From the NCBI RefSeq assembly GCF_035961655.1, contig NZ_CP108393.1, positions 1,860,001-1,924,000 of the forward strand: a DNA stretch of 64,000 nt, given 5' to 3'. Below are positions 51,763 to 64,000 of this stretch, in pieces. Positions within the stretch are counted from its first letter, which is position 1; each line of letters opens with the position of its first letter. The notes beneath the pieces were generated by a model. It had not been told where the DNA came from. It did no database searches and saw only the letters and a program-made list of their open reading frames with translations. Made by a program: the position numbers and the translations under genes. The DNA is from Streptomyces sp. NBC_01317. Its GTDB lineage: Bacteria > Actinomycetota > Actinomycetes > Streptomycetales > Streptomycetaceae.

Positions 51763-52179
51763 TCAGTAGACCCGTACGCTCACCGCGCTGACCGTGAGGG
51801 GGCTGAGGCTTCCCTCGACGTTCAGTGAGGCGCCCGTGCAGTTCTCGCCCGCGTAGAGCGTCGCGGTACGGGAGTTGGTGTTGACGGCCGAGAAGGCGCG
51901 GCCGGCCCAGCCGTGTTCCGCCAGGCTCACGCAGGCGCTGGTCGCCGGGGGGAGGGCCTGGACCGTGAACCGGGCACCGGCGTAGCCGGCCCCCTCGAAC
52001 AGACACAGTGTGTTGCTGAATTCGCAGGAGCCGGCCAGGGCCGACTGGCTCGCCGGGGCCGCCTGGACCGTACCGGCACCCGCCGCGAGGAGGAGGGCGG
52101 CGGTGGCCGTGACGGACAGGGCGCCGGGCCGGCCGGGACGCCGGGTGCCGAGGCGGGTGAGAGCGCTGAAGGAAAGCAT
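51763..52179 (-). CDS. Secreted peptidase-inhibitor-family I36 (beta/gamma-crystallin-like) protein
   Basis: A 138-residue secreted protein: signal peptide (about 1-42), then a single crystallin-like/I36 domain ('CLFEGAGYAGARFTVQA', 'AEHGWAGRAFSAVNTNS', 'ATLYAGENCTG'), with Cys pairs likely bonded. I36 members include the Streptomyces metalloprotease inhibitor SMI. The target is unknown. It follows the MFS gene by about 97 bases. Confidence 0.78.
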   Translation of the reverse strand: MLSFSALTRLGTRRPGRPGALSVTATAALLLAAGAGTVQAAPASQSALAGSCEFSNTLCLFEGAGYAGARFTVQALPPATSACVSLAEHGWAGRAFSAVNTNSRTATLYAGENCTGASLNVEGSLSPLTVSAVSVRVY

Positions 52180-52276: not shown

Positions 52277-53551
52277 TCAGCCGGTGGGCCGGGTCCCGCC
52301 CGCGCGGGCTGCGAGGAGCACCGCGGCCAGTCCGGTCAGGGCGGCGCAGACCCAGAAGACCTGGGTGTAGCCCGTCCAGGTGGCCACCGTCCCGGTGACC
52401 AGGCCGCCGAGCAGTGTGCCGGTCTTGAACGCGCTGGAGTAGAGGGACGAGGCCACGCCCAGCCGGGAGGGCAGGCGGTCCTGGAGGATGACGACAGGGA
52501 TGCTCAGGACCACGGCGGTCCAGAGCGCGTTGGGGATCTGGAGCAGGAGCAGGGCGGTCCGGCCGGACGCGAGGGGCAGCAGGCAGAAGAAGACGGTGGC
52601 CAGCGCCGAGGCCGCGACGACCAGACGCCGCTTGCCGAGCTTCTCGGACCGGGCCCCCACCCACACCAGGGCGGGGATCTCCAGCGCGGCGCTCAGCCCG
52701 AGGAGCCAGCCCACGAAGCCCTGGCCGAGGCCGAGGTCGCGGGTGACAAAAAGCGCCAGGTTGATCTGGTACATCATGTTGGCCGTCAGCAGCAGCACAA
52801 CGGCCGTGAGCAGGGCCGCCGTTCCCCGGTCTAGCCCGGCGAACGGGTTGCGGGCGGTGGGGGCCGAGGGGGCCTCGTGGTCGGCGCCGTCGCCCGGCGC
52901 CCGCCCCGAGGCGGACGGCAGGCCCCACCGGCTCAGCGCCGAGGCGGCCAGCGACAGGGCGGCGGCGGCCAGGTACATCGCGGTGAAGCCCTGCCGGGCG
53001 ATCAGGGTGAAGGCGAGCGGGGGCCCGATCACCCAGGACAGCGAGGTGATCGAGCGGAGGAAGCCGGTGAAGAAGGCCGCGCCCTGGCCGCGGGTGTCGG
53101 CCAGTTGCCTGCTGTACGCGAAGAGCTGGGCGAGGCTCGTACTGCCGACGCCGAAACAGCACACCCCGGCGACCAGGAGCAGGTAGTAGTCGCGCAGACC
53201 GGCGTAGGACAGCCCTCCGACGGCGAAGAGGAGGGCGGACAACGCCAGCAGGCGCCGGCGGTCCCGTACCCGGTCGGAGAGCACACCGATCACGAGGTCG
53301 ACGCCGATCTCACCGACGGCCCGTCCGGCGAAGAACAGGCCGATCATCAGCGGGGTCGCCCCCACCTCGTCGGCGAGGAAGAGACTGGCCGAGGTCGAGA
53401 CCATCGCACCCGACACCCCGACGGCTCCGGTGACCCCGACGAGCCGGCCGATCGCGCCTTCACGGAGGAAGGACAGCCGGGCGCCCTTCGCGGCGGGGGA
53501 CGCGGACGGGTCCGGGGAGAGCTCAGGGGTCGGTTCGGGTTCGGCGGTCAT
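52277..53551 (-). CDS. MFS transporter (sugar-efflux/drug-type)
   Basis: A 424-residue, roughly 12-helix transporter. Loop 2-3 signature: 'IGVLSDRVRDRRRLLALSALL'-type pattern. The polar N-terminus is proline-rich, and a linker with 'PGDGADHEAPSAPTAR' separates the halves. It looks like SetB-type sugar-efflux proteins ('TGFLRSITSLSWVIGPPLAF'). It lies 93 bases after the GT2 gene on the same strand and could export the cluster's product. Start is ATG 53551. Confidence 0.82.
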   Translation of the reverse strand: MTAEPEPTPELSPDPSASPAAKGARLSFLREGAIGRLVGVTGAVGVSGAMVSTSASLFLADEVGATPLMIGLFFAGRAVGEIGVDLVIGVLSDRVRDRRRLLALSALLFAVGGLSYAGLRDYYLLLVAGVCCFGVGSTSLAQLFAYSRQLADTRGQGAAFFTGFLRSITSLSWVIGPPLAFTLIARQGFTAMYLAAAALSLAASALSRWGLPSASGRAPGDGADHEAPSAPTARNPFAGLDRGTAALLTAVVLLLTANMMYQINLALFVTRDLGLGQGFVGWLLGLSAALEIPALVWVGARSEKLGKRRLVVAASALATVFFCLLPLASGRTALLLLQIPNALWTAVVLSIPVVILQDRLPSRLGVASSLYSSAFKTGTLLGGLVTGTVATWTGYTQVFWVCAALTGLAAVLLAARAGGTRPTG

Positions 53552-53644
53552 AACCGGCTCTTCCTTCGTCCGGCCGCCGGCGGGCGGCAGCGGGAGACGC
53601 GACAGCGGGACACACGATCCCACTCCGGCAACTGTGCGCTCCTG

Positions 53645-54829
53645 TCAGCCCCGTTCGTCGCCCGCCGGGGTGAGGACCTTGTGCGCGACGCGCTCCGCCT
53701 CGCGGAGGACGGCCTCCCGGTACCGCTCGCTCAGTGCGGTGACCGCCGGCAGGACGCGGCACTCCTCGACGCTCTTGTCCCCGTAGGGCAGCGCGAATCC
53801 GGCCAGCGGCACCACGTCGAGCGGTGAGCGCGGGTCGAACAGCGCGTCGGTCTCCGGGGAGGGCCGGAGCGCCCCGCCTTCCGTCACGGCACCGACCACC
53901 AGGCCGGTCCTGCCGTTGATCGTGCCCCGTACGACTCCGAGCGCGCGGCCTTCGCCCCCGGCGGCCGCGGTGAGTTCGCGCTCCACGTCCGGGTAGATCC
54001 GGTCCGTCTCCAACCAGCCGAAGACAAGAGCCAGTTCGAGGTCGAGGCGCGGCCACTTGCCCAGGTAGTACCGGTTGTTGACGTGGGCCGTGGCGCCGTT
54101 GGCGGAGAGGTCCCGCGCATGGGGCAGGTGCAGTCCGACGACGTCCTCGCGCAGGACGATCGGGGTCCCGGTCGAGGCGACCCGGAATCCCCACTCCTGA
54201 TCCTCGGGCCCCCATCCGTCGAAGCCCTCGTCGAAGAGGAGGTCGTGGCGGTGGAGCGTGTCGGCGGACAGGGCGAGGAAGCCGCCCCGGGCGAACACCC
54301 AGGGGAAGCGGGCGATCGCCGACTCGTAGGCGGGCGACCAGCGTTCGTCCAGGACATCCGTCGTTCCCGCGTCGAGTACGGCGAGCGCCTCGCGGTAGTG
54401 GCCAAACGGCAGTGCCTCGACCGCGTCCACCTGGCTGTCGACCACCTCGTCGTAGCCGATCATCTGGCCCACGACGCAGATGCTCTGACCGTGTGCGTAG
54501 TGGCGGTCGTACAGGTTGCGCAGGCAGTTGGGGGGCAGCACCATGTCCGCGTCGAGGAACACGTACACCTGTCCCGTGGCCTGCTTGATCGCCAGGTTCC
54601 TGGCGCGGCTCAGGTTCCACTTCTCGTCCGACATGACGGTGACGATGTCGAGCCGGTCCATGAACTCCTGGCAGGTGGCAACGTACTCCCGCGAGTACTC
54701 CAGCGCGCCGACGACGACCTCGAACTCGGAGCGGTCCATGGTCTGTTCCGCCAGCGCGGCGAACACCAGCCTGATGTTGTCCAGGCGTTGTTTGTAAGGG
54801 ATCACGACACTGAACTTGGGGCGACCCAT
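53645..54829 (-). CDS. Family 2 glycosyltransferase
   Basis: A 394-residue GT-A fold glycosyltransferase. The N-terminus 'FSVVIPYKQRLDNIRLVFAAL' is typical, the metal-binding Asp-x-Asp is 'VFLDADMVLPP', and the acceptor block is 'GFDGWGPEDQEWGFRVAS', as in chondroitin/polypeptide GalNAc-type GT2 enzymes. There is no membrane segment. It should transfer a sugar to an unknown acceptor. ATG 54829 follows GAGGAG. Its promoter shares a long element with that of the APH gene. Confidence 0.9.
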   Translation of the reverse strand: MGRPKFSVVIPYKQRLDNIRLVFAALAEQTMDRSEFEVVVGALEYSREYVATCQEFMDRLDIVTVMSDEKWNLSRARNLAIKQATGQVYVFLDADMVLPPNCLRNLYDRHYAHGQSICVVGQMIGYDEVVDSQVDAVEALPFGHYREALAVLDAGTTDVLDERWSPAYESAIARFPWVFARGGFLALSADTLHRHDLLFDEGFDGWGPEDQEWGFRVASTGTPIVLREDVVGLHLPHARDLSANGATAHVNNRYYLGKWPRLDLELALVFGWLETDRIYPDVERELTAAAGGEGRALGVVRGTINGRTGLVVGAVTEGGALRPSPETDALFDPRSPLDVVPLAGFALPYGDKSVEECRVLPAVTALSERYREAVLREAERVAHKVLTPAGDERG

Positions 54830-54880
54830 CTCTGCTCCTCGCGTGGCTGCCGGAGATCTCCCGTGGGGAGGCGGGACCAG

Positions 54881-54918
54881 CTTGGCACAATATTGCCAAG
54901 CTGGGCAAGTGTGAGGCA
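54881..54918 (-). promoter_or_regulatory. Promoter and cluster operator of the GT2 gene (element 1)
   Basis: On the minus strand TTGCCT (54913-54918), an 18-base spacer and CAATAT (54889-54894) form a promoter. The spacer contains TTGCC-N6-GGCAA (54892-54907), and TTGGCA-N6-TGCCAA (54881-54898) overlaps the -10. The same architecture occurs before the APH gene: 23 of 30 aligned positions are identical. Confidence 0.7.
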
Positions 54919-54952
54919 ATAATCAGGGTCGCCCCACCGCGTCGAAACGTAT

Positions 54953-55870
54953 CTACCCGAGATCCGCGACCAGTTGGTCCAGGACATGCAGTGCGGAGGC
55001 GGCCCGTACCGGGTCCTGGTAGTACGGGTCGCCGGGGACGGGCAGTGAGCCGGCCAGCGCCCAGCCGCGCCCACGGGCCCAGGTCGCGTCGTCCACGCCG
55101 AGCGCCGCGCGGTAGACACCGCGCACCTCGTCGGGCAGGAAGTTCCAGGCGGGGAGCAGGTCCACGGCCGGATCGCCGGCGGCCAGCGTCCCGAAGTCGA
55201 TGACCGCGCTCAGCCGGCCCTCGGCGAGCAGGATGTTCCCCGTCCCGAGGTCGCCGTGGATCCAGACCGGCGGCCCCTCCCAGGCGGGAGCCGTGAGCGC
55301 CGCCTGCCACACGGCGGTCAGCGCGTCGGTGTCGACCAGGCCCTTCATGGCCTCGATCTTGGGCAGGACACGCGCCTCGGACGCCAGGGAGTCCCGCTCG
55401 TCCCCCATGGGCACGCCGCGGAACGCGTTGCTCCACTGCGGTCCCGGGGCGCCCGTGGCGTCGACCGCCCGGAGGGCGGAGACGAAGGCGGCCAGCTCGG
55501 TGGCGGCGCCGGCCGGGTCCACGAGGGCGGCGCCCGACGCGTTCTCCCCGGGCAGCCACCGGTAGACCGACCAGGAGAAGGGATAGCCCTCGGCAGGCTT
55601 GCCCATCGCCAGCGGCTCGGAGACGGGCAGCGGGAGGTGCGGCGCGATGCGCGGGAGCCACTCGTGCTCGCGCTCCACCTGCCCCGCCCAGCGCGGGAAG
55701 CGCGGCAGCCGTACGGACATGTCGTCACCCAGCCGGAACGTCGCGTTGTCCATGCCGGGCACGGGAATCGTCGCCAGGGGCAGGTCGGCCCACTGGGGGA
55801 ACTGGGCGGCGAGCAGCCGGCGCACGAGGGCCGCGTCGATGGGCACTTCGTCCGTACTGGTCGATGACAC
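54953..55870 (-). CDS. Aminoglycoside-phosphotransferase (APH) family kinase
   Basis: A 305-residue APH-fold kinase. The catalytic loop is 'VWIHGDLGTGNILLA' (Asp in HGD, Asn six residues later), and the metal-binding Asp is in 'SAVIDFGTLAAGD'. 'RWAGQVEREHEWLPRIAPHLP' is the usual N-lobe pattern. Such enzymes phosphorylate hydroxyls of aminoglycosides, sugars or small molecules. In this cluster it may give self-resistance or modify a biosynthetic intermediate. GTG 55870 has GGAGA seven bases upstream. It is divergent from the NRPS gene. Confidence 0.88.
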   Translation of the reverse strand: MSSTSTDEVPIDAALVRRLLAAQFPQWADLPLATIPVPGMDNATFRLGDDMSVRLPRFPRWAGQVEREHEWLPRIAPHLPLPVSEPLAMGKPAEGYPFSWSVYRWLPGENASGAALVDPAGAATELAAFVSALRAVDATGAPGPQWSNAFRGVPMGDERDSLASEARVLPKIEAMKGLVDTDALTAVWQAALTAPAWEGPPVWIHGDLGTGNILLAEGRLSAVIDFGTLAAGDPAVDLLPAWNFLPDEVRGVYRAALGVDDATWARGRGWALAGSLPVPGDPYYQDPVRAASALHVLDQLVADLG

Positions 55871-55994
55871 GCGTATCTCCTCGGTAGGGGGCAGGTCGGG
55901 CGGCCTCATCCTGCCGGGGCGGGCGCCGCCCATCAACTGGGTTCGCCTAGGCCGCCGTTCGGGTTCGGCTCCGGGTCCGCTCCGGGCTCAGCAG

Positions 55995-56024
55995 ATATTG
56001 CCAAGCTAGGCAACATCGTGACAA
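55995..56024 (-). promoter_or_regulatory. Promoter and cluster operator of the APH gene (element 2)
   Basis: On the minus strand TTGTCA (56019-56024), an 18-base spacer and CAATAT (55995-56000) form a promoter. TTGCC-N6-GGCAA (55998-56013) lies within it. The stretch from ATATTGCC to GGCAA is identical to element 1 except at one base. The site lies 85 bases upstream of the NRPS start, so one operator can serve both divergent genes. Confidence 0.72.
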
Positions 56025-56098
56025 CCTATCACCTCACCCATTGAGATCCGTACGGCCTCCCGGCCGTGCGCCGCCAGCATCCAGGGGAGTGGGACGGC

Positions 56099-59000
56099 GT
56101 GCTACCAGACCCGAGATGGACCGCGGGACGGCCCGGCGCCACCCCCGGCGAAGGCCTGCACGAGACGTTCGCGCGAACGGCACGGGCCCGCCCGGACGCC
56201 GTCGCCCTGGCGGGGGCGGCCCGCCCGAACATGACGTACGGGGAGCTGGACCGTACCGCCGACGCCTGGGCGGCCCGGCTGATGGCCGCCGGGGTCGGGC
56301 CGGGCTCCTTGGTGCCCGTACTGCTGCCCAGGGGGCCGGAGTTGGTGGTCGCGCTGCTCGCGGTCCTCAAGGCGGGCGCGGCCTACGCCCCGCTGGACCC
56401 GGACTGGCCCGCGCGCCGTCTGCGCGAGGCGATGGCCGACCTGGAGGCGCCCCTCGTGGTGGCCCGGTCCGCCGCCGGGACCCCTGACGGCCACGGCCTG
56501 CCCGTGTGGACACCGCCCACCGGGCCGGTGGCGGCGCCGCCCGGGTTCCGGCCCGCCGAGGTCGCGGGCTCCGACGCCGCGTGTGTCTTCTTCACCTCGG
56601 GCACAACAGGCCGGCCCAAGGGGGTGGTGACGCCCCACCGGGCCACGGTCCGCCTCTTCGCGCCGGACACCTTCGCGCACTTCGGCGCCGGTACGGTGAC
56701 GCCTCTCGCGGCCCCGCCGCCGTGGGACGCGTTCTCGCTGGAGCTGTGGTCCGCCCTGCTCAACGGCGGGCGCTCGGTGGTGGTCGAGGAGCCGTACCTC
56801 TCCCCCGCCGCGCTGCGCGACGGGGTGTCGGTCCACGGGACGGACACGGTCTGGCTCACCAGCAGCCTCTTCAACATGATCACCGACGAGGACCCGGCGG
56901 CCTTCGAGGGCGTGCGCCAGGTCATGATCGGCGGCGAACGGCTCTCCACCGCACACGTCAGGCGCTTCCTGCTGCGGCACCCGGGGATCGTGCTGCTCAA
57001 CGGCTACGGGCCGGTCGAGAGCACGGTGTTCGCCACGACCCACCGCATCACACCGGCCGACTGCGACCTGCCCGGCGGCATTCCCCTGGGCCGACCTGTT
57101 CCCGGCACGGGGGTCCATGTGCTGGACGGCACCCGGGTGTGCGCCGTGGGCGAGACGGGGGAGATCTGTGTCGCGGGTGAGGGGCTGGCGCTGCGCTACC
57201 TCGGCGATCCGGCCCTCACCGAGGCCGCGTTCACCCGGGTGACGATCGACGGCGAGACCCTGCGGGTCTACCGGACCGGCGACCTGGGGGTGTGGGGCGC
57301 GGACGGGCTGCTGCACTTCCGGGGGCGGGCCGACCGGCAGGTGAAGATCCGGGGCCACCGGGTGGAGCCCGCGGAGGTCGAGCGCCAGGTGGAGCGGTGC
57401 CTGCCGGCCGTGCGGACGTGCCGCGTCCTGGCCAGGAAGGATGCCGCCGGTACGGCGCAGGAGTTGGTGGCGTTCTGCGTGCCCGCCGAGCCGGGGGATC
57501 GGCTGGAGGGCGCGGCGGCCGCCCTGGCCGAGGTTCTTGTCTCGTACCAACGGCCCTCCCGGGTGGTCGCGGTGGACGCCCTTCCGCTGACGGCCCGGGG
57601 GAAGCTGGACGAACGGGCGCTGCTGGGGATGGCATCGGCCGGGCCGGCGATCGGGCCTGGCTCGGATGTGGGTGGCGGGGACGCGGTGGGTAGCGGTGAC
57701 CTCGCCGATCCGGCCGTACGGGCCGTCGCCGAGACGTTCGCCGCCGTGCTCGGGCGCGCGAATGTCCCGCTCGACACACCGTTCGTCGCGCTCGGCGGCA
57801 CCTCGCTCGGCGCCGGCCGGGTCTGTGCCCGGCTCGCCGCGCGGCTCCACCGCCCGGTCCCGGTCGCCACGCTGTACGAGCGGCCGACCGTCGCCGCTCT
57901 CGCCCACTGGCTCCGCACCACACCGCCGCCCGACGACCTGCCGGAGGCGCCGCCGGAGACCGGTGACACCCCCCTCACCCCGTTGCAAACCGTCTATCTG
58001 ACCCGGCAGTTGCTCGCCCCCTCGGACCTGACGGCACACTGCGTGCTGGCCTGGCTCGTGGAGGGGGACCTGGACACGGCGGCCCTGGAGACGGCGGTCG
58101 CCGAGACCCACCGGCGCCACGAGTCCCTGAGCGCCGCGTACGTCCTGGACCCCGCGCCGTACGCGCTGCTCGTGGACGCGCCCCCACCCCTCGTCGAGAT
58201 CCTGCCCCGTGAGAACACCGTGGACAGCGCGGTTTCCGCTGCGCGCGCCGCGCTCTCCGGTGAACTGGAGCCGGAACAGGGCGAGTTGTGGCGGACCGTG
58301 CTGGCCCCGGTGGCCGGCGGGCGGGCCTCGGTGTTCGGGGTCGTGGTGCATCACATCGCCTTCGACGGCTGGTCGGAGTCCGTCCTCGCGCGTGACCTCG
58401 CGGCGGCGTACAACGCGGCGAAGGGCGGCGGGCGGACGGCCGAGCCCGCGCCTCCCTCGCTGGCGGTGATCCACCAGGACCGTGCACGCTACCGGCGGCA
58501 GACCGCGTCGGCCGCCCATGAGGACTACGTACGGGGCGAGTTGACTGGCGTACCGGATCTGCGGTGGCCGGCCGGACCTCCGGATCGGGCGACCGGCGGA
58601 CCCGGCCGCGTCGACGCGCCACTGTCGTCCGCCGTACTGGCGGGCGTGGACGACCTGGCCCGCGAGGCGGGAGTCACCCGCTTCGCGGTACTGCTGTCGA
58701 ACTGGGCCGCTGCCCTGGCGGAGGTGACCGGCCGGCGTGACTTCGCCGTGGGCGTCCCCGTGGCACAACGCGACGGCGCGCGGCTCGACGGTGTGGTGGG
58801 CTGCCACATCGGCATGCTGTGCCTGCGGTTGCGTGGTGCCGCGCTGGGCGGGGGTACGGACGCCGTCCGCGAGGCCTCTCGTATCACCGCGCGTGCCCTC
58901 GCCGCGCAGGACGTGTCCCTCGGGGACATCCTCAGCCTGACGGGCCGGCCCCGCACCGGCCGGCCGCCGCTCTACCAGGTGCTGTTCGCGCTCCAGGACA

Positions 59001-59224
59001 ACGCGGTCCCCCGGCTCGAACTGGCGGGCGTACGGACCGACTTTCTGCGCCAGCCGTATCTGGACCTCCCTCTCGAACTGCACACCGAACTGTGGCCCGA
59101 CGAGCGGGGCGGGCTGCGGGTGGAGGTCTCCTTCCGCCCGGAGGCGGTCGCGGAGACCACCGCCCAGGAGATCGCCAAGCGCTTCACGGACCGTCTGCGC
59201 AGCCTGTCGCCGGGCGTGGTGTGA
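56099..59224 (+). CDS. Nonribosomal peptide synthetase, A-T-C
   Basis: A 1041-residue NRPS with domains in the order adenylation (about 20-510), thiolation (about 540-610) and condensation (about 625-1035). A-domain motifs: 'FFTSGTTGRPKGVV' (A3, near 164), 'NGYGPVESTVF' (A5), 'YRTGDLG' (A7) and 'LPLTARGKLDERAL' (A10). Asp in 'PWDAFSLELW' sits at the 235 position, so an alpha-amino acid is likely activated. An eye alignment gives D-A-L-L-I-G-G-V-F, with no firm substrate. Thiolation Ser569 lies in 'LGGTSL', and the condensation motif is 'HHIAFDGWS' (751-759). There is no thioesterase. The start is GTG 56099 with AGGGGAG at 56083-56089. Confidence 0.92.
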   Translation: MLPDPRWTAGRPGATPGEGLHETFARTARARPDAVALAGAARPNMTYGELDRTADAWAARLMAAGVGPGSLVPVLLPRGPELVVALLAVLKAGAAYAPLDPDWPARRLREAMADLEAPLVVARSAAGTPDGHGLPVWTPPTGPVAAPPGFRPAEVAGSDAACVFFTSGTTGRPKGVVTPHRATVRLFAPDTFAHFGAGTVTPLAAPPPWDAFSLELWSALLNGGRSVVVEEPYLSPAALRDGVSVHGTDTVWLTSSLFNMITDEDPAAFEGVRQVMIGGERLSTAHVRRFLLRHPGIVLLNGYGPVESTVFATTHRITPADCDLPGGIPLGRPVPGTGVHVLDGTRVCAVGETGEICVAGEGLALRYLGDPALTEAAFTRVTIDGETLRVYRTGDLGVWGADGLLHFRGRADRQVKIRGHRVEPAEVERQVERCLPAVRTCRVLARKDAAGTAQELVAFCVPAEPGDRLEGAAAALAEVLVSYQRPSRVVAVDALPLTARGKLDERALLGMASAGPAIGPGSDVGGGDAVGSGDLADPAVRAVAETFAAVLGRANVPLDTPFVALGGTSLGAGRVCARLAARLHRPVPVATLYERPTVAALAHWLRTTPPPDDLPEAPPETGDTPLTPLQTVYLTRQLLAPSDLTAHCVLAWLVEGDLDTAALETAVAETHRRHESLSAAYVLDPAPYALLVDAPPPLVEILPRENTVDSAVSAARAALSGELEPEQGELWRTVLAPVAGGRASVFGVVVHHIAFDGWSESVLARDLAAAYNAAKGGGRTAEPAPPSLAVIHQDRARYRRQTASAAHEDYVRGELTGVPDLRWPAGPPDRATGGPGRVDAPLSSAVLAGVDDLAREAGVTRFAVLLSNWAAALAEVTGRRDFAVGVPVAQRDGARLDGVVGCHIGMLCLRLRGAALGGGTDAVREASRITARALAAQDVSLGDILSLTGRPRTGRPPLYQVLFALQDNAVPRLELAGVRTDFLRQPYLDLPLELHTELWPDERGGLRVEVSFRPEAVAETTAQEIAKRFTDRLRSLSPGVV

Positions 59225-59290
59225 CGGTACGCCGTGTGGGGTGACGGTACGGGGCCCCGGGGCAACGAGCGACCCGGCACCACAGGCCCC

Positions 59291-59320
59291 AGGAACACGT
59301 CAGGAACACGTCAGGAACAA
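59291..59320. repeat. Tandem 11-bp repeats (aggaacacgtc)
   Basis: Two exact copies of aggaacacgtc and a partial third lie between the NRPS stop and the RidA start. Confidence 0.8.
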
Positions 59321-59336
59321 CGGAAGGGTGAAGGAC

Positions 59337-59768
59337 ATGGTCATGAAACAACGGCGGCTCACGCACATCTCGGCCCCGGAGGGCGTCGAGCCGAGTTCCG
59401 GCTACACCCACGTGGTGACGGGACCGGGCCGGCTGGCCGCACTCGCCGGACAGATGCCGTTCGACGAGAAGGGCACGCTCGTCGGCGAGGGTGACCCGGC
59501 CGCCCAGGCACGGCAGGTCTTCACGAACATGCGGGCCTGTCTGGCCGCCACGGGGGCCACCTTCGACGACGTCATCAAGCTGACCTACTACGTCACCGAC
59601 GTGGCGTTCGTGCCGGCCGTCCTTGCGGTACGGGACGAGTTCATCGACACCGCGCGCCCGCCGGCCAGCACCGTGGTGCAGGTCGTGGCGCTGTTCCGGC
59701 CCGAACTGCTCCTCGAAGTGGACGCGTTCGCGCTGGTCGGTGACACCGCCGACGCCGACGCCCGCTGA
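59337..59768 (+). CDS. RidA/YjgF-family protein
   Basis: A 143-residue Rid protein. Family residues are seen in 'GRLAALAGQMPFDEKGTLVG', 'RQVFTNMRACLAATGATFDDVIKLTYYVTD' pattern and 'RPPASTVVQVVALFRPELLLEVDAFA', where the Arg of 'RPPAST' is the imine-site residue of active RidA. It hydrolyses reactive enamine/imine intermediates, or has diverged in this cluster for a biosynthetic step. ATG 59337 follows an AAGG site, with the in-frame ATG 59343 as an alternative. It is probably in operon with the NRPS and hydrolase genes. Confidence 0.87.
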   Translation: MVMKQRRLTHISAPEGVEPSSGYTHVVTGPGRLAALAGQMPFDEKGTLVGEGDPAAQARQVFTNMRACLAATGATFDDVIKLTYYVTDVAFVPAVLAVRDEFIDTARPPASTVVQVVALFRPELLLEVDAFALVGDTADADAR

Positions 59769-59812: not shown

Positions 59813-60823
59813 ATGACCGTGACCGCCACCACACCCCCACGACCACACCCCTGTACCGGGCAGATACCCCCGTTCGACGGCGAGTTGGGGGCGCCGCTGC
59901 GCGCCATCCTCGCGGAGCTGCCCATGCCGCTGACCCCCGGACTCGTCGCCGACCGGCGGCGCAGGAGCCTGCGCGGCCGGCTCTCCGACGACGCGATCCG
60001 CCGGGACGGGGCGTTCACGATCGAGGAACTGGCCGTGCCCGCGACGGCCGGCAGGCCCGAGATCCCCCTGCTGCTCTGCCGGCCGACCGGGACGGCCGCG
60101 CCGCGCGGTGTCATCTACCACACGCACGGCGGTGGCATGGTCGCCGGCAGCCACCGCAGTACGGAGCTGACCGGCGAGCTCAACCGGGCCGAGGAGCTTC
60201 AACTCGCCGTGCTGTCCGTGGACTACCGGCTCGCCCCGGAGCACCCGGACCCGACGCCGGTGGAGGACTGTTACGCCGGTCTGCTCTGGCTGGCCGGGAA
60301 CGCCGAGCGGCTCGGGCTCCCGGCGGACCGTACCGTCGTCAGCGGCAACAGCGCGGGCGGCGCCCTCGCCGCCGGGCTCGCCCTGCTGGCCCGGGACCGC
60401 CAAGGGCCGCCGCCGCTGGGGCAGTTCCTCCAGTTCCCGATGCTCGACGACCGGTGCGACAGCTTCTCGGCGCGGCAGATGGGCCGGGTGGGGCTCTGGG
60501 ACGGCGAGTCCGACGCCGCGGGGTGGACGGCGCTGCTCGGCGACCGGCGGGGCACCGACGACGTCTCCTGCTACGCCGCGCCGGCCCGCGCGGACGACGT
60601 CTCGGGACTTCCGCCGGCCTGGATCGAGGTCGGGTCGGTGGAGGCGCTGCGGGACACGGCCGTCGCGTACGCGTCCCGGCTCTGGCAGGCCGGTGGCGAG
60701 GCGGAACTGCACGTGTGGGCGGGCGCCTTCCACAGCTTCGACGAGTGGGTCCCCGACGCGGTCGTCTCCCGGACGGCGCATCACGCGCGGGTCGGCTGGC
60801 TGAGGCGCGTACTGGCCCTCTGA
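59813..60823 (+). CDS. Alpha/beta hydrolase, hormone-sensitive-lipase (GDXG) type
   Basis: A 336-residue HSL-type hydrolase. The oxyanion loop is 'YHTHGGGMVAGSH', the nucleophile Ser lies in 'VVSGNSAGGALAAGLAL', the acid Asp is near 'WIEVGSVEALRD', and the final His is in 'VWAGAFHSFDEW'. Family members are esterases. As the synthetase lacks a thioesterase, this enzyme could release or trim its product, but that is inference. The start ATG 59813 follows GGAGCACC. A strong terminator follows, shared with the convergent regulator gene. Confidence 0.88.
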   Translation: MTVTATTPPRPHPCTGQIPPFDGELGAPLRAILAELPMPLTPGLVADRRRRSLRGRLSDDAIRRDGAFTIEELAVPATAGRPEIPLLLCRPTGTAAPRGVIYHTHGGGMVAGSHRSTELTGELNRAEELQLAVLSVDYRLAPEHPDPTPVEDCYAGLLWLAGNAERLGLPADRTVVSGNSAGGALAAGLALLARDRQGPPPLGQFLQFPMLDDRCDSFSARQMGRVGLWDGESDAAGWTALLGDRRGTDDVSCYAAPARADDVSGLPPAWIEVGSVEALRDTAVAYASRLWQAGGEAELHVWAGAFHSFDEWVPDAVVSRTAHHARVGWLRRVLAL

Positions 60824-60916: not shown

Positions 60917-62155
60917 TCAGCCCTCGGCCGCCGACCTGCGCCGGCGGGACGTCTCCAGCGCGCCCGCGAGGATGCGCCAGATGTCCGCCGCGAGGTCGAT
61001 GTTCGACGCCTGCCTGGCCTGCTCGCCCAGCTCCCTGAGCTGCCCCAGGCCCCGCTCCTCGTCGCCCTCCAGGAGCAGCAGCTGGCTGTCGAGGATGCTG
61101 AGCCTGATCCGGTCACGGTAGGTCATGCGCATGTCGTCGCAGTTGAGTTCGTCGTGCGCGGCGCGAGCGTCCTCGTACCGGCCCTCGTGGAAGGCGAGAT
61201 AGGCCTGGAGCATCAACAGCTCCTGCCGCATGACCGACGTACCGACGAGGGCGAGCGCGCCCTCCACCTCCTGGAGGTACGCCCGCCCGAGATCGGTGAG
61301 CGGCGGCTCGGTCTGGAGGCAGAGCGAGGCGGTGGCCAGCCGGAGCCGTACCCAGAGAGTGAGGTCGACCCGGCTGTCCAGCTCGTTCATCGCGCGTTCG
61401 AGGAACTCCCGGGCCCGCTCGTGGTCGCCCTGCCGGAAACGCACCGTGGCCGCCGACCAGAGCGCCTCGGTGCGCATGACCTCCGAGCCGCCGTTCTCCA
61501 CCAGGGCGACCAGTTCGTCCACGTGGGCCCTGGCGTCGGGCAGCCGGCCCGCCTCGGCCTCGGCCGCGACGAGCGTCTGCAACGCCGTCCCGACGTCGGA
61601 GACGGACAGCTTGCCCTGCGTGGCCAACTGATAGGCGTGGGTGGCCATGTCGATGGCACGGGTCACCTCGCCCGTCGCCCTCAGCAACCGGGCGAGCTGG
61701 GACTGGGCCCTGCACTGCAACTCGGGAAGCGCCAGTTCGTCGGCGATCCTGACCAGTTCCTCCAGGGCTTCCCGCTCCTCGGCGTGCTCGCCGCGGCGCT
61801 GCCAGTGCCTGGAGATGATCCACAGGGCCTGCCAGCGCAGAAGGAGATCCTCGTCCTCCGCCTGGTCCAGCGCGATGATCAGGCGTTCGACCGTCTCGTC
61901 ACTGTCGGAGGAGGTCGCGAGGGACAGTGCCTGGGCCAGCGAACCACCGCTCGGCGGCACGTCGAACGCCGACCGCTCCACGGCAAGTTTCTTGACAAGG
62001 TATGTGACAACCCGCTCGGTGGGTTGTCGCGCACCGGACTCCAGTCGTGACAGGTATCCGGTGGAGATTTCCTCACCCGCGAGAGCGGCCTGGGAGAGCC
62101 GGCGCGCCCTCCTCAGCTCTTTGAGGCGACGACCGAAATAGGGCTGTTCCATCAT
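60917..62155 (-). CDS. XRE-family helix-turn-helix regulator with TPR-like domain
   Basis: A 412-residue regulator. The N-terminal XRE domain is 'RRLKELRRARRLSQAALAGE', with the recognition helix in 'ISTGYLSRLESGARQPTERV' (about 9-60). The rest is helical with tetratricopeptide-like pairs ('LARLLRATGEVTRAIDMATHAYQ', 'EALWSAATVRFRQGDHERAREFLERAM' and others, about 85-400). This build is that of RRNPP peptide-sensing regulators of Firmicutes and of related actinobacterial HTH-TPR proteins, in which the TPR part binds a small peptide or protein. It is divergent from a secreted repeat-peptide gene. ATG 62155 and ATG 62152 are both possible. Confidence 0.88.
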   Translation of the reverse strand: MMEQPYFGRRLKELRRARRLSQAALAGEEISTGYLSRLESGARQPTERVVTYLVKKLAVERSAFDVPPSGGSLAQALSLATSSDSDETVERLIIALDQAEDEDLLLRWQALWIISRHWQRRGEHAEEREALEELVRIADELALPELQCRAQSQLARLLRATGEVTRAIDMATHAYQLATQGKLSVSDVGTALQTLVAAEAEAGRLPDARAHVDELVALVENGGSEVMRTEALWSAATVRFRQGDHERAREFLERAMNELDSRVDLTLWVRLRLATASLCLQTEPPLTDLGRAYLQEVEGALALVGTSVMRQELLMLQAYLAFHEGRYEDARAAHDELNCDDMRMTYRDRIRLSILDSQLLLLEGDEERGLGQLRELGEQARQASNIDLAADIWRILAGALETSRRRRSAAEG

Positions 62156-62273
62156 GGCGGTCCCACTATTCACGGGGATCCAGATACACACGGATCCAGT
62201 TTTCGGCCGACGGTCGACCTCCTGCCTCAGCGTCTCAGACACCTCAGAAGAGTCACCATTATGCCTGACGGTC

Positions 62274-62302
62274 ACTGTAGCGGCCACACTGCGTGCTGAC
62301 AA
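62274..62302 (-). promoter_or_regulatory. Candidate promoter of the XRE-TPR gene
   Basis: TTGTCA (62297-62302), a 17-base spacer and TACAGT (62274-62279) on the minus strand are a good match to the vegetative consensus. The leader would be about 110 bases. A TTGGCAA half-site lies just upstream. Confidence 0.6.
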
Positions 62303-62359
62303 AGTTCCGGACCGGTTGGCAATTGATCTCTCCGGGGCGGGATCACCCTGAGTCACACT

Positions 62360-62388
62360 TTGGCAGATCCTAGGCAAGTACTTGCCAA
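62360..62388. promoter_or_regulatory. Cluster operator at the peptide promoter (element 3)
   Basis: TTGGCA-N7-GGCAA (62360-62377) is followed by the perfect palindrome GGCAAGTACTTGCC (62373-62386). Read on the minus strand it contains CTTGCCTAG, shared with element 2 (GTTGCCTAG). It therefore combines the same half-sites as the operators before the GT2 and APH genes. Confidence 0.65.
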
Positions 62389-62411
62389 ACGGCTTTTCCA
62401 GTTACTAGCTT
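62382..62411 (+). promoter_or_regulatory. Candidate promoter of the repeat-peptide gene
   Basis: TTGCCA (62382-62387), an 18-base spacer and TAGCTT (62406-62411) place the transcription start near 62418. The -35 is part of the palindrome of element 3, so a regulator bound there would block it. Confidence 0.6.
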
Positions 62412-62474
62412 TATTCCGTCAGCACCCGGCGTCGCAGCGCCGCCCGAACCGTCAACGGATCCACTGGAGTTCCC

Positions 62475-62717
62475 ATGCGCAAGTTCACCGGTACCTCGTC
62501 CGCCTCGGCCGTCGCGGCTTTTTTACTGACACTGCCGGCCGCCACCGCTCTCTTGGCGCTGCCGTTCGCCGCCGCCGTGGCTGACATCGACTGGCCGGGG
62601 AACAACCTCACGGTCGCCTCCGCCTTCGACACGACCGGCAGCATCGACTGGCCGGGGCCGAACCCGGTGGTCAACCCGGCCGGCGGCCCCGGCACGGACG
62701 ACATCGACTGGCCGTAA
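62475..62717 (+). CDS. Secreted peptide precursor with three IDWP repeats
   Basis: An 80-residue protein. Residues 1-36 form a Sec signal peptide ending 'LPFAAAVA', with cleavage likely just before Asp37. The 44-residue mature part contains three repeats, DIDWPGNN (37-44), SIDWPGPN (56-63) and the exact C-terminus DIDWP (76-80), about 20 residues apart, joined by Gly/Pro/Asn/Thr linkers without Cys. ATG 62475 has GGAG six bases upstream. Codon 17 is TTA (62523-62525), so translation should depend on the bldA tRNA. I recognise no family. The layout suggests a multi-copy signalling or modified-peptide precursor, divergent from the XRE-TPR regulator. Confidence 0.82.
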   Translation: MRKFTGTSSASAVAAFLLTLPAATALLALPFAAAVADIDWPGNNLTVASAFDTTGSIDWPGPNPVVNPAGGPGTDDIDWP

Positions 62718-62973: not shown

Positions 62974-64000
62974 ATGTCAGCTGAGCAGCAACTCCCGGTG
63001 AACACCCCCACCGTCGCGGTGATCATCCCGGCCCGTAACGGCGCCGCGTACATCGACCGCGCACTCGCCTCCCTCGTGACCCAGACGGTCCCGCCGAACG
63101 AGGTCGTCGTCGTCGACGACGGCTCGGACGACGACACCTACCACCGGGCGCGCCGGTGGGCCGACCTGCTGCCCCTCAAGGTCATCCGTTCCGACCCCAA
63201 GGGCACGTGGCACGCCCGCCGCACCGCGATCGAGGCCACCGATTCGGAGTTCATCCTCCAGCTCGACGCCGACGACACCCTGCTGCCCGGCGCGGTGGCC
63301 GGCATGACCCAGGCGTACGCGCGGCAGCCCGGACTCGTCGCGCCCCGGCGGTTCCTGCTGGTGGAGGGCGAGACCGAGAACATCCCGCGCCCGGTGGTCG
63401 AGCGGCTGCCGGACTCCGAGGACCAGTACGTCTACATGCTGGTACGCAACTACATCGGCGTCGGCTGCCTGTACAGCAGGAAGGACTACGAGGCCGTCGG
63501 CGGCTACCGGCCGTGCCGTTACGCCGAGGACTGGGACCTGTGGCTGCGGTTCGCCGCCGCCGGCATCCCGATCTCGCTGCCGGCGGAAGCCACGTACGTC
63601 TACAACATGCACAGCAAGAACATCTCCACGAACATCGACATCGGCGCCACCGACCTGGAGATCCTGCGGCGCTTCCTCGACGCGGGGACGGAGACCCACC
63701 GCCGTACCGCCAAGCTGGCGTTCCTCCAGCGCGCGGGCATCGACTACGTCGAGGAACTCGACAAGGCCACGGTCGCCGAGGCGTCGGTGGACCTGGCCGC
63801 ACTCGGCCTGGTCGAGAACGAGCACCTCCAGGTCCGCAGGGACACCGACCTCGGGCATGTCCTCGTCGGCAGCTCGACGGCCGGGGACGGGCAGCGGCTC
63901 GTCGTCGTGTCGCCCGACGGGAGCCAGACACGGCTCCGTTCCCTCGTGGCGGCCGGCGGAATCCTGGAGGCCAACGAGACCGACCAGCCGTCCCTGCGCT
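62974..64000 (+). CDS. Family 2 glycosyltransferase, 3' end beyond the window
   Basis: 342 residues are visible from ATG 62974 (AAGGAG at 62963-62968). The GT-A start is 'VAVIIPARNGAAYIDRAL', with 'VVVVDDGSDDDT', the metal-binding 'LQLDADDTLLPG', and the acceptor-side 'EDWDLWLRFAAAG'. It is related in fold but not closely similar to the GT2 at 53645. It lies 256 bases after the IDWP-peptide gene on the same strand and may share its control. The visible C-terminal part looks like a helical linker, and the stop codon lies outside the window. Confidence 0.9.
   Translation, partial: MSAEQQLPVNTPTVAVIIPARNGAAYIDRALASLVTQTVPPNEVVVVDDGSDDDTYHRARRWADLLPLKVIRSDPKGTWHARRTAIEATDSEFILQLDADDTLLPGAVAGMTQAYARQPGLVAPRRFLLVEGETENIPRPVVERLPDSEDQYVYMLVRNYIGVGCLYSRKDYEAVGGYRPCRYAEDWDLWLRFAAAGIPISLPAEATYVYNMHSKNISTNIDIGATDLEILRRFLDAGTETHRRTAKLAFLQRAGIDYVEELDKATVAEASVDLAALGLVENEHLQVRRDTDLGHVLVGSSTAGDGQRLVVVSPDGSQTRLRSLVAAGGILEANETDQPSLR

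Follow-up and report, generated by a model that had tools for sequence, protein, structure and literature searches.

Short W-P-motif peptides encoded beside XRE-TPR regulators in Streptomyces: a candidate RRNPP-like switch for biosynthetic gene clusters

The closest described systems are the RRNPP receptors of Firmicutes (Rap, Rgg/ComR, NprR, PlcR, PrgX and AimR), which combine an N-terminal XRE-type helix-turn-helix (HTH) with a superhelix of tetratricopeptide repeats (TPRs) and are accompanied by a small adjacent gene for an exported peptide precursor, often with a C-terminal motif. Tandem copies of a short signal within one secreted precursor are likewise known from pheromones of the yeast alpha-factor type and from some Phr precursors. 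An RRNPP survey (PMC10075063) covers Firmicutes and viruses, uses an HTH plus TPR receptor of 250–500 aa as a criterion, and presents actinobacterial signalling as typically relying on enzyme-made small molecules, oligopeptides being typical of Firmicutes. Described here is a divergent gene pair from a 64,000-nt stretch of the Streptomyces sp. NBC_01317 genome, a single 8.07-Mb contig (NZ_CP108393.1, positions 1,860,001 to 1,924,000; “the window”, whose numbering is used throughout), in which an XRE-TPR regulator gene (60917..62155, − strand) faces away from a gene (62475..62717, + strand) for an 80-aa precursor with three IDWP repeats. That this pair forms a switch of RRNPP-like kind, by which biosynthetic clusters are controlled with the exported peptide as signal, seems a reasonably probable reading, and the peptide is probably the regulator's ligand if extracellular and intracellular modes of action are taken together. 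A search of the open-licence literature, preprints not included, found no publication on an IDWP peptide or on an RRNPP system in Streptomyces, which is not proof of absence.

The peptide gene has an ATG start with GGAG upstream, and its cysteine-free product opens with a putative signal sequence (residues 1–36, 62475..62582, + strand; hydropathy 2.13), a hydrophobic stretch closed by AAAVA directly before the first DIDWP and, as read from its residues, compatible with Sec export. The three IDWP copies, located with a DNA motif pattern (62586..62597, 62643..62654 and 62703..62714, all on the + strand), correspond to residues 38–41, 57–60 and 77–80, and are thus spaced by 19 and then 20 residues, the last one being the exact C-terminus; an earlier note on this DNA, made without database searches, had described the exported-type peptide, its evenly spaced repeats and its divergent XRE-TPR partner, an observation that is confirmed here. 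Streptomyces sp. SID3212 encodes a peptide with 94% identity that differs by nine synonymous and five non-synonymous codons but leaves the IDWP motifs untouched; it was the sole match of a single-sequence protein search, and SID3212 was also the sole strain matched when genome contigs were scanned with the peptide. A loose same-genus search (E up to 1) matched 346 of 392 genomes, taken as nearly all chance, and the only match followed from it (G091, E 1.5e-4) proved real. Ordinary homology searches fail with so short and variable a peptide, and relatives were therefore sought through a DNA motif and through the regulator.

A DNA pattern for two IDWP copies matched 10 of the 392 same-genus genomes (its backwards version matched none), and all ten matches are short open reading frames (ORFs) whose N-termini look hydrophobic by eye. 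A gene of the XRE-TPR family lies within about 1.5 kb of the repeats in six of the ten (G068, G091, G244, G303, G309 and G000, the last being the genome of the window), about 3–4 kb away in G039 and G199, and farther off on the same contig in G117 (about 14 kb) and G099 (29 kb). A profile built from eight regulators paired with a peptide gave, at a cut-off of E up to 1e-40, 78 matches in 66 of the 392 genomes; four candidates per genome were scored, and further copies may be missed. Seventy of these matches, together with the SID3212 copy, make up the 71 regulators examined, the eight left out being the second copy in G199, two G001 fragments, a G071 fragment, and those of G113, G080, G235 and G058. 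Under a fixed rule, by which an ORF of at least 18 aa with [ILV][DEG]WP in its last seven residues or in tandem had to have its centre no more than 2.5 kb from the regulator ORF's 5' end, a peptide is present at 48 of the 71 regulators, as against 0 or 1 of 71 for each of ten altered motifs (reversed, permuted, with W or P replaced, or with K, R, S or T as the second residue), and the density of such ORFs is 1.11 per 10 kb near regulators vs. 0.033 far from them.

Because the residues of this rule had been chosen after examples were seen, three further views of the pairing were added. When the nine regulators found via the peptide (that of the window, the SID3212 copy and seven other profile members) are set aside, the fixed rule still places a peptide at 39 of the 62 found by regulator homology, one of the 39 (G117) sitting in a genome flagged by the motif search through another peptide. 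A choice-free ranking of tetrapeptides in ORFs near vs. far from regulators, with ORFs centred in the regulator excluded, puts IDWP first (near 21 of 70 regulators, with 5 far and about 2.9 expected; Poisson about 6e-12, a rough figure given the dependence between related loci) and IEWP second (8 near, 0 far). AWQP, third in this ranking (7 near, 0 far), was attributed by eye to a sigma-factor gene that ends nearby, and a first version of the ranking was dropped for its Arg/Pro-rich nonsense frames, which had made RRRP, RRRR and RPRR rank as high as IDWP or higher. A class-wide search of 394 genomes detected the regulator in 11 genomes and 2 of 137 genera, namely this one and that of G573, from another family; this near restriction to a single genus is a difference from RRNPP systems. 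The adjacent 10–100 aa precursor gene typical of RRNPP systems is present in the window as the 80-aa divergent gene and at 48 of the 71 loci by the fixed rule, though not universally. The regulator profile matches no fewer than 808 database proteins at E up to 1e-60, and the names among the matches listed are generic. The regulator is also encoded, at <60% identity, on 36 plasmid records (35 from Streptomyces and 1 from Kitasatospora), which means that the module is often plasmid-borne.

A number of observations weigh against the exported-signal switch, the first of which concern the pairing itself. The earlier note would have been refuted by regulator homologues that consistently lack a neighbouring repeat peptide, which is not the case, since most of the 71 have one; even so, 23 of them have none by the fixed rule, and among eight full-length regulators new from the class-wide search, the rule finds a single one (G701, IEWP twice, resembling the G071 peptide), a score of 1 that two altered motifs out of the ten equal. 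A loosened rule, set after these eight had been seen (S allowed as the second residue, tail of up to 22), raises the count to four of eight (G701, both G747 copies with IGWP, and G754 with ISWP three times); even so, no peptide is recognised beside the regulator of G646, that of G662 or either one of G573, and for the 71, the loosened rule yields 50 peptides at the price of altered-motif controls that rise to 1–11. The fixed rule is therefore clean yet misses variants, which makes the pairing rate to be expected in new genomes uncertain. By-hand inspection beside peptide-less regulators did reveal motif variants at L092, L094 and L098, whereas the guessed peptides of L115 (SRWP) and L126 (AEWL) were not counted. 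In a regulator tree with hand-set labels, the motif occurs in all main groups and the peptide-less rows are scattered (17 changes vs. 17.7 with shuffled labels). Among the 23 is the second regulator of the window's own genome (L109, G000:C1:7369100-7388200), which has no recognisable peptide; the large genes beside it resemble ABC permeases by eye.

Where a peptide is present, only W-P and two further residues are conserved, whereas length, copy number and the remainder of the sequence vary, in keeping with the claim that IDWP would be conserved between species; three repeats with the last one at the C-terminus, on the other hand, proved not to be the general form, as there are one to five copies, sometimes followed by a tail, and the second residue may be D, E, G or S. 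This variation in copy number within one family and the unconserved spacers distinguish the peptides from the multi-copy precursors mentioned above, whose tandem short signals they otherwise share. Over 77 motifs, Asp is always encoded by GAC, Pro by CCG (39), CCC (36), CCT (1) or CCA (1), and Ile mostly by ATC, with ATT and ATA also used. Three forms can be told apart. Form A, which includes the window peptide and those of G091, G068, G244, G309, G303, G229, G060, G071, G210, G155, G386 and others, has a hydrophobic N-terminus and two to five motif copies, and its gene is usually divergent from the regulator. Form B, also with a hydrophobic N-terminus, is mostly 42–60 aa long with a single motif at the exact C-terminus, and its gene lies a short way upstream of the regulator gene on the strand that both share, in most cases next to the regulators most distant from that of the window (the B peptides of L136, L141 and L145 were assigned by eye, the script having picked a late or wrong start). 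Form C is short and has no clear hydrophobic N-terminus (e.g., MKHPVPARRAA...DDDIGWPKR or ...GEIEWP). Counted by hand, about 30 peptides are of form A or B, and about 20 of form C. By eye, leaderless GEIEWP-type peptides are accompanied by an extracytoplasmic function (ECF) sigma-factor family (L123:11830-12345) and a PapA/condensation-like family (L119:12341-13879), each present at 9 of 68 loci. Two closely related loci (L051:9458-9679 and L091:10534-10638) share a peptide end of another kind (AGVIGRA and AGVIGRV), and the L091 peptide, which has no W-P motifs, may be a second signal or a decayed gene.

With the about 20 form C peptides (about 19–64 aa), a pheromone exported by Sec fails to account for every member, and, as read from their sequences, they count against a purely extracellular model. 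They are an argument for a ligand acting inside the cell, with the leaderless forms being the ancestral or working ones and the exported forms serving for disposal, as a timer or as a derived pheromone; such a reading also gains from the neighbourhoods in which an A and a C peptide occur together, up to about 16 kb apart (G039, G117, G132, G199 and G747, i.e., L050, L057/L095, L099, L054 and L171; in G747, the exported IDWP peptide lies about 8 kb from one regulator copy). It nevertheless appears rather unlikely, seeing that about 30 relatives, including the window's own, have an N-terminal hydrophobic stretch, and that many first motifs stand, by eye, right after an A-x-A-like site, which would be pointless for a purely internal ligand. 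SARP genes are found near some of the neighbourhoods with both forms (Pfam BTAD in L099).

The regulator's longest ORF spans 60917-62377 (− strand), but most relatives begin with M-L-x-Q-P-x-F-G, and, this start being conserved among them, the likely coding sequence is 60917-62155 with its start at 62152-62155 (MMEQPYFG; 411–412 aa). Pfam HTH_31 and, after it, TPR_MalT are both above cut-offs, so that at 411 aa, the protein has the RRNPP receptor architecture. The AlphaFold2 model, computed from a 50-row alignment, has a pLDDT (predicted local distance difference test) of 94.4 and a pTM (predicted template modelling score) of 0.83, and its best Foldseek matches include LGN, Rap with CSF, PlcR with PapR7 and the Phi3T Rap with its pheromone, while VIA-align scores are 27.5 for APPBP2, 25.3 for MalT, about 25 for Rap, 23 for NprR and 20–21 for AimR. 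Profile matches in the PDB include ComR (HTH) and PlcR (HTH plus linker), along with entries named just “Transcriptional regulator”, which are presumably Rgg. The predicted fold is receptor-like, resembling Rap, NprR and AimR, and the HTH is similar to those of ComR and PlcR by profile, and to this extent, the proposal of an actinobacterial RRNPP equivalent stands; it falls short of proof, as the TPRs of MalT, APPBP2 and LGN fit the fold equally well, and the TPR region is MalT-like in Pfam, another difference from RRNPP receptors. MalT senses a sugar and is not known to have an adjacent peptide, and the HTH in the present family is, unlike that of MalT, XRE-type and N-terminal. Among actinobacterial HTH regulators, those of the NsdA family (TPR-like by model name) and RamB give weak matches in the HTH region only, far below curated cut-offs; the NsdA family was rejected (NF053720 at 13.1 vs. 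a cut-off of 75 bits for L141, with the window protein unmatched at E up to 1), and NF038139 scores 24.8 against a cut-off of 700 bits on the window protein.

Beyond residue 100 of the regulator, 17 polar or aromatic positions are at least 90% conserved, nine of them Arg, and by manual helix assignment, 15 of the 17 map to first helices of TPR pairs. The first helix of each pair lines the groove in TPR proteins, and an Arg-rich groove of the kind modelled here would suit an acidic peptide. A quick search for regulator residues covarying with the D/E/G variant of the motif yielded nothing convincing, which adds to the opposing observations.

A further line of evidence comes from palindromes. 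Seven-mers such as TTGGCAA and TTGCCAA are found upstream of 62 of the 71 regulators, compared with 22 of 313 other ORF upstreams (mechanical ORF starts were used, for the window regulator too), and they combine into two composite palindromes. In 1.26 Mb of family loci, a few of which overlap, GGCAA-N4/5-TTGCC occurs 87 times, as against 3 occurrences of its matched control; for TTGCC-N6-GGCAA, the count is 14, with 2 and 2 for controls. The genome of the window has nine places of the first type and five of the second. Seven of these 14 fall within 36 kb (54893, 55998, 62373, 79749, 84573, 90409 and 90440), each at the 5' end of a mechanical ORF or close to one, and in the same 36 kb as the peptide gene, and an eighth lies about 110–125 bp upstream of the second regulator copy (7378056). 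In the window, these are the predicted operators GGCAAGTACTTGCC between regulator and peptide (62373..62386, of the GGCAA-N4/5-TTGCC type), TTGCCAAGCTAGGCAA between the APH gene (−) and the non-ribosomal peptide synthetase (NRPS) gene (+) (55998..56013), and TTGCCAAGCTGGGCAA at the 5' end of a GT2 ORF, upstream of its likely start (54893..54908), the latter two being of the TTGCC-N6-GGCAA type; the half-site TTGGCAA, one of the enriched seven-mers, is at 62316..62322, and the half-site occurs at only four places within the window, all upstream of cluster genes. The backwards controls, however, are no rarer genome-wide (8 vs. 5 and 12 vs. 9, compared by count), so the evidence lies in the clustering of the palindromes rather than in their number. 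With such palindromes at its promoters, control of the adjacent NRPS/glycosyltransferase cluster, as the earlier note had proposed, gains support at the sequence level. A promoter scan of the region between regulator and peptide gave one weak match. In G573 (L168), where two regulators and no W-P peptide were found, two TTGCC-N6-GGCAA sites lie about 90 bp apart (14842 and 14931).

A predicted operator in the peptide's own promoter would equally be expected if the peptide were a mere member of the regulon, e.g., an exported protective or surface peptide, and co-location alone is no proof of binding; conservation limited to W-P plus two residues is nevertheless more what one would expect of a short motif that is recognised than of a structural protein, which makes such a role improbable. 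The location of the peptides in biosynthetic clusters could likewise suggest the precursor of a ribosomally synthesised and post-translationally modified peptide (RiPP), with IDWP cores converted into the product by cluster enzymes, and multi-copy cores do occur in some RiPPs. Yet, with loci centred on the regulator (which is in 68 of 68 by construction), no other family of ORFs of at least 110 aa within about 9.5 kb is shared by more than 35 of 68 loci, the most frequent one (35 of 68) being an AMP-binding group. That no modifying enzyme is shared among these ORFs makes a RiPP core less likely and a ligand-receptor pair more so, and, together with a four-residue motif that remains unchanged across the regulator tree, leaves the RiPP explanation with very little plausibility.

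Under the exported-signal switch, the regulator would be a receptor in the cytosol that recognises a short linear peptide with the core [I/V/L]-[D/E/G]-W-P, encoded by the adjoining small gene. The window precursor would be exported by Sec and cleaved into up to three (D)IDWP-containing fragments, one of which would re-enter the cell and bind in the concave groove of the TPR domain, where binding might either activate the regulator or relieve repression. The regulator would act at GGCAA-N4/5-TTGCC and TTGCC-N6-GGCAA in its own promoter, in that of the peptide and in those of the NRPS/glycosyltransferase cluster, which would thereby respond to the producer population. From RRNPP systems, such a switch would differ in having one W-P core over divergent receptors, many multi-copy precursors, leaderless relatives and a link to biosynthetic clusters. 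The wider proposition, i.e., a Streptomyces family of ribosomal peptide pheromones built on an [I/V/L]-[D/E/G/S]-W-P code, each with a dedicated XRE-TPR receptor that gates one cluster via TTGCC palindromes, is offered tentatively, with its chances put just short of even. If true, a family of peptide receptors with ties to biosynthetic clusters would amount to a new layer of control in actinobacteria, and synthetic tetra- or pentapeptides might become a general means of waking silent clusters; as the motif and the palindrome are both recognisable in sequence data, many unexplored clusters could have their ligand, receptor and regulon predicted together.

The surroundings of the pair in the window look like those of a biosynthetic (antibiotic-type) gene cluster, judging by Pfam domains. 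On the + strand are the genes for an NRPS (56066..59224) with adenylation, peptidyl carrier protein and condensation domains (A-PCP-C), a RidA/L-PSP family protein (59241..59768), an alpha/beta hydrolase (Abhydrolase_3, 59813..60823) and, downstream of the peptide, a GT2 glycosyltransferase (62974..64000) whose ORF runs beyond the window's end to about 64038; on the − strand are those for an APH-family phosphotransferase (54953..55936), another GT2 glycosyltransferase (53645..54919) and an MFS transporter (52277..53623). Beyond the window-crossing GT2 gene, PhyH, polysaccharide deacetylase, FAD oxidase, SDR and GMC oxidoreductase genes are found, and also a class III aminotransferase, an amine oxidase, a GT2 and a second A-PCP protein. 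Adjoining the cluster's MFS gene, positions 51763-52179 encode a small peptidase inhibitor I36-domain protein.
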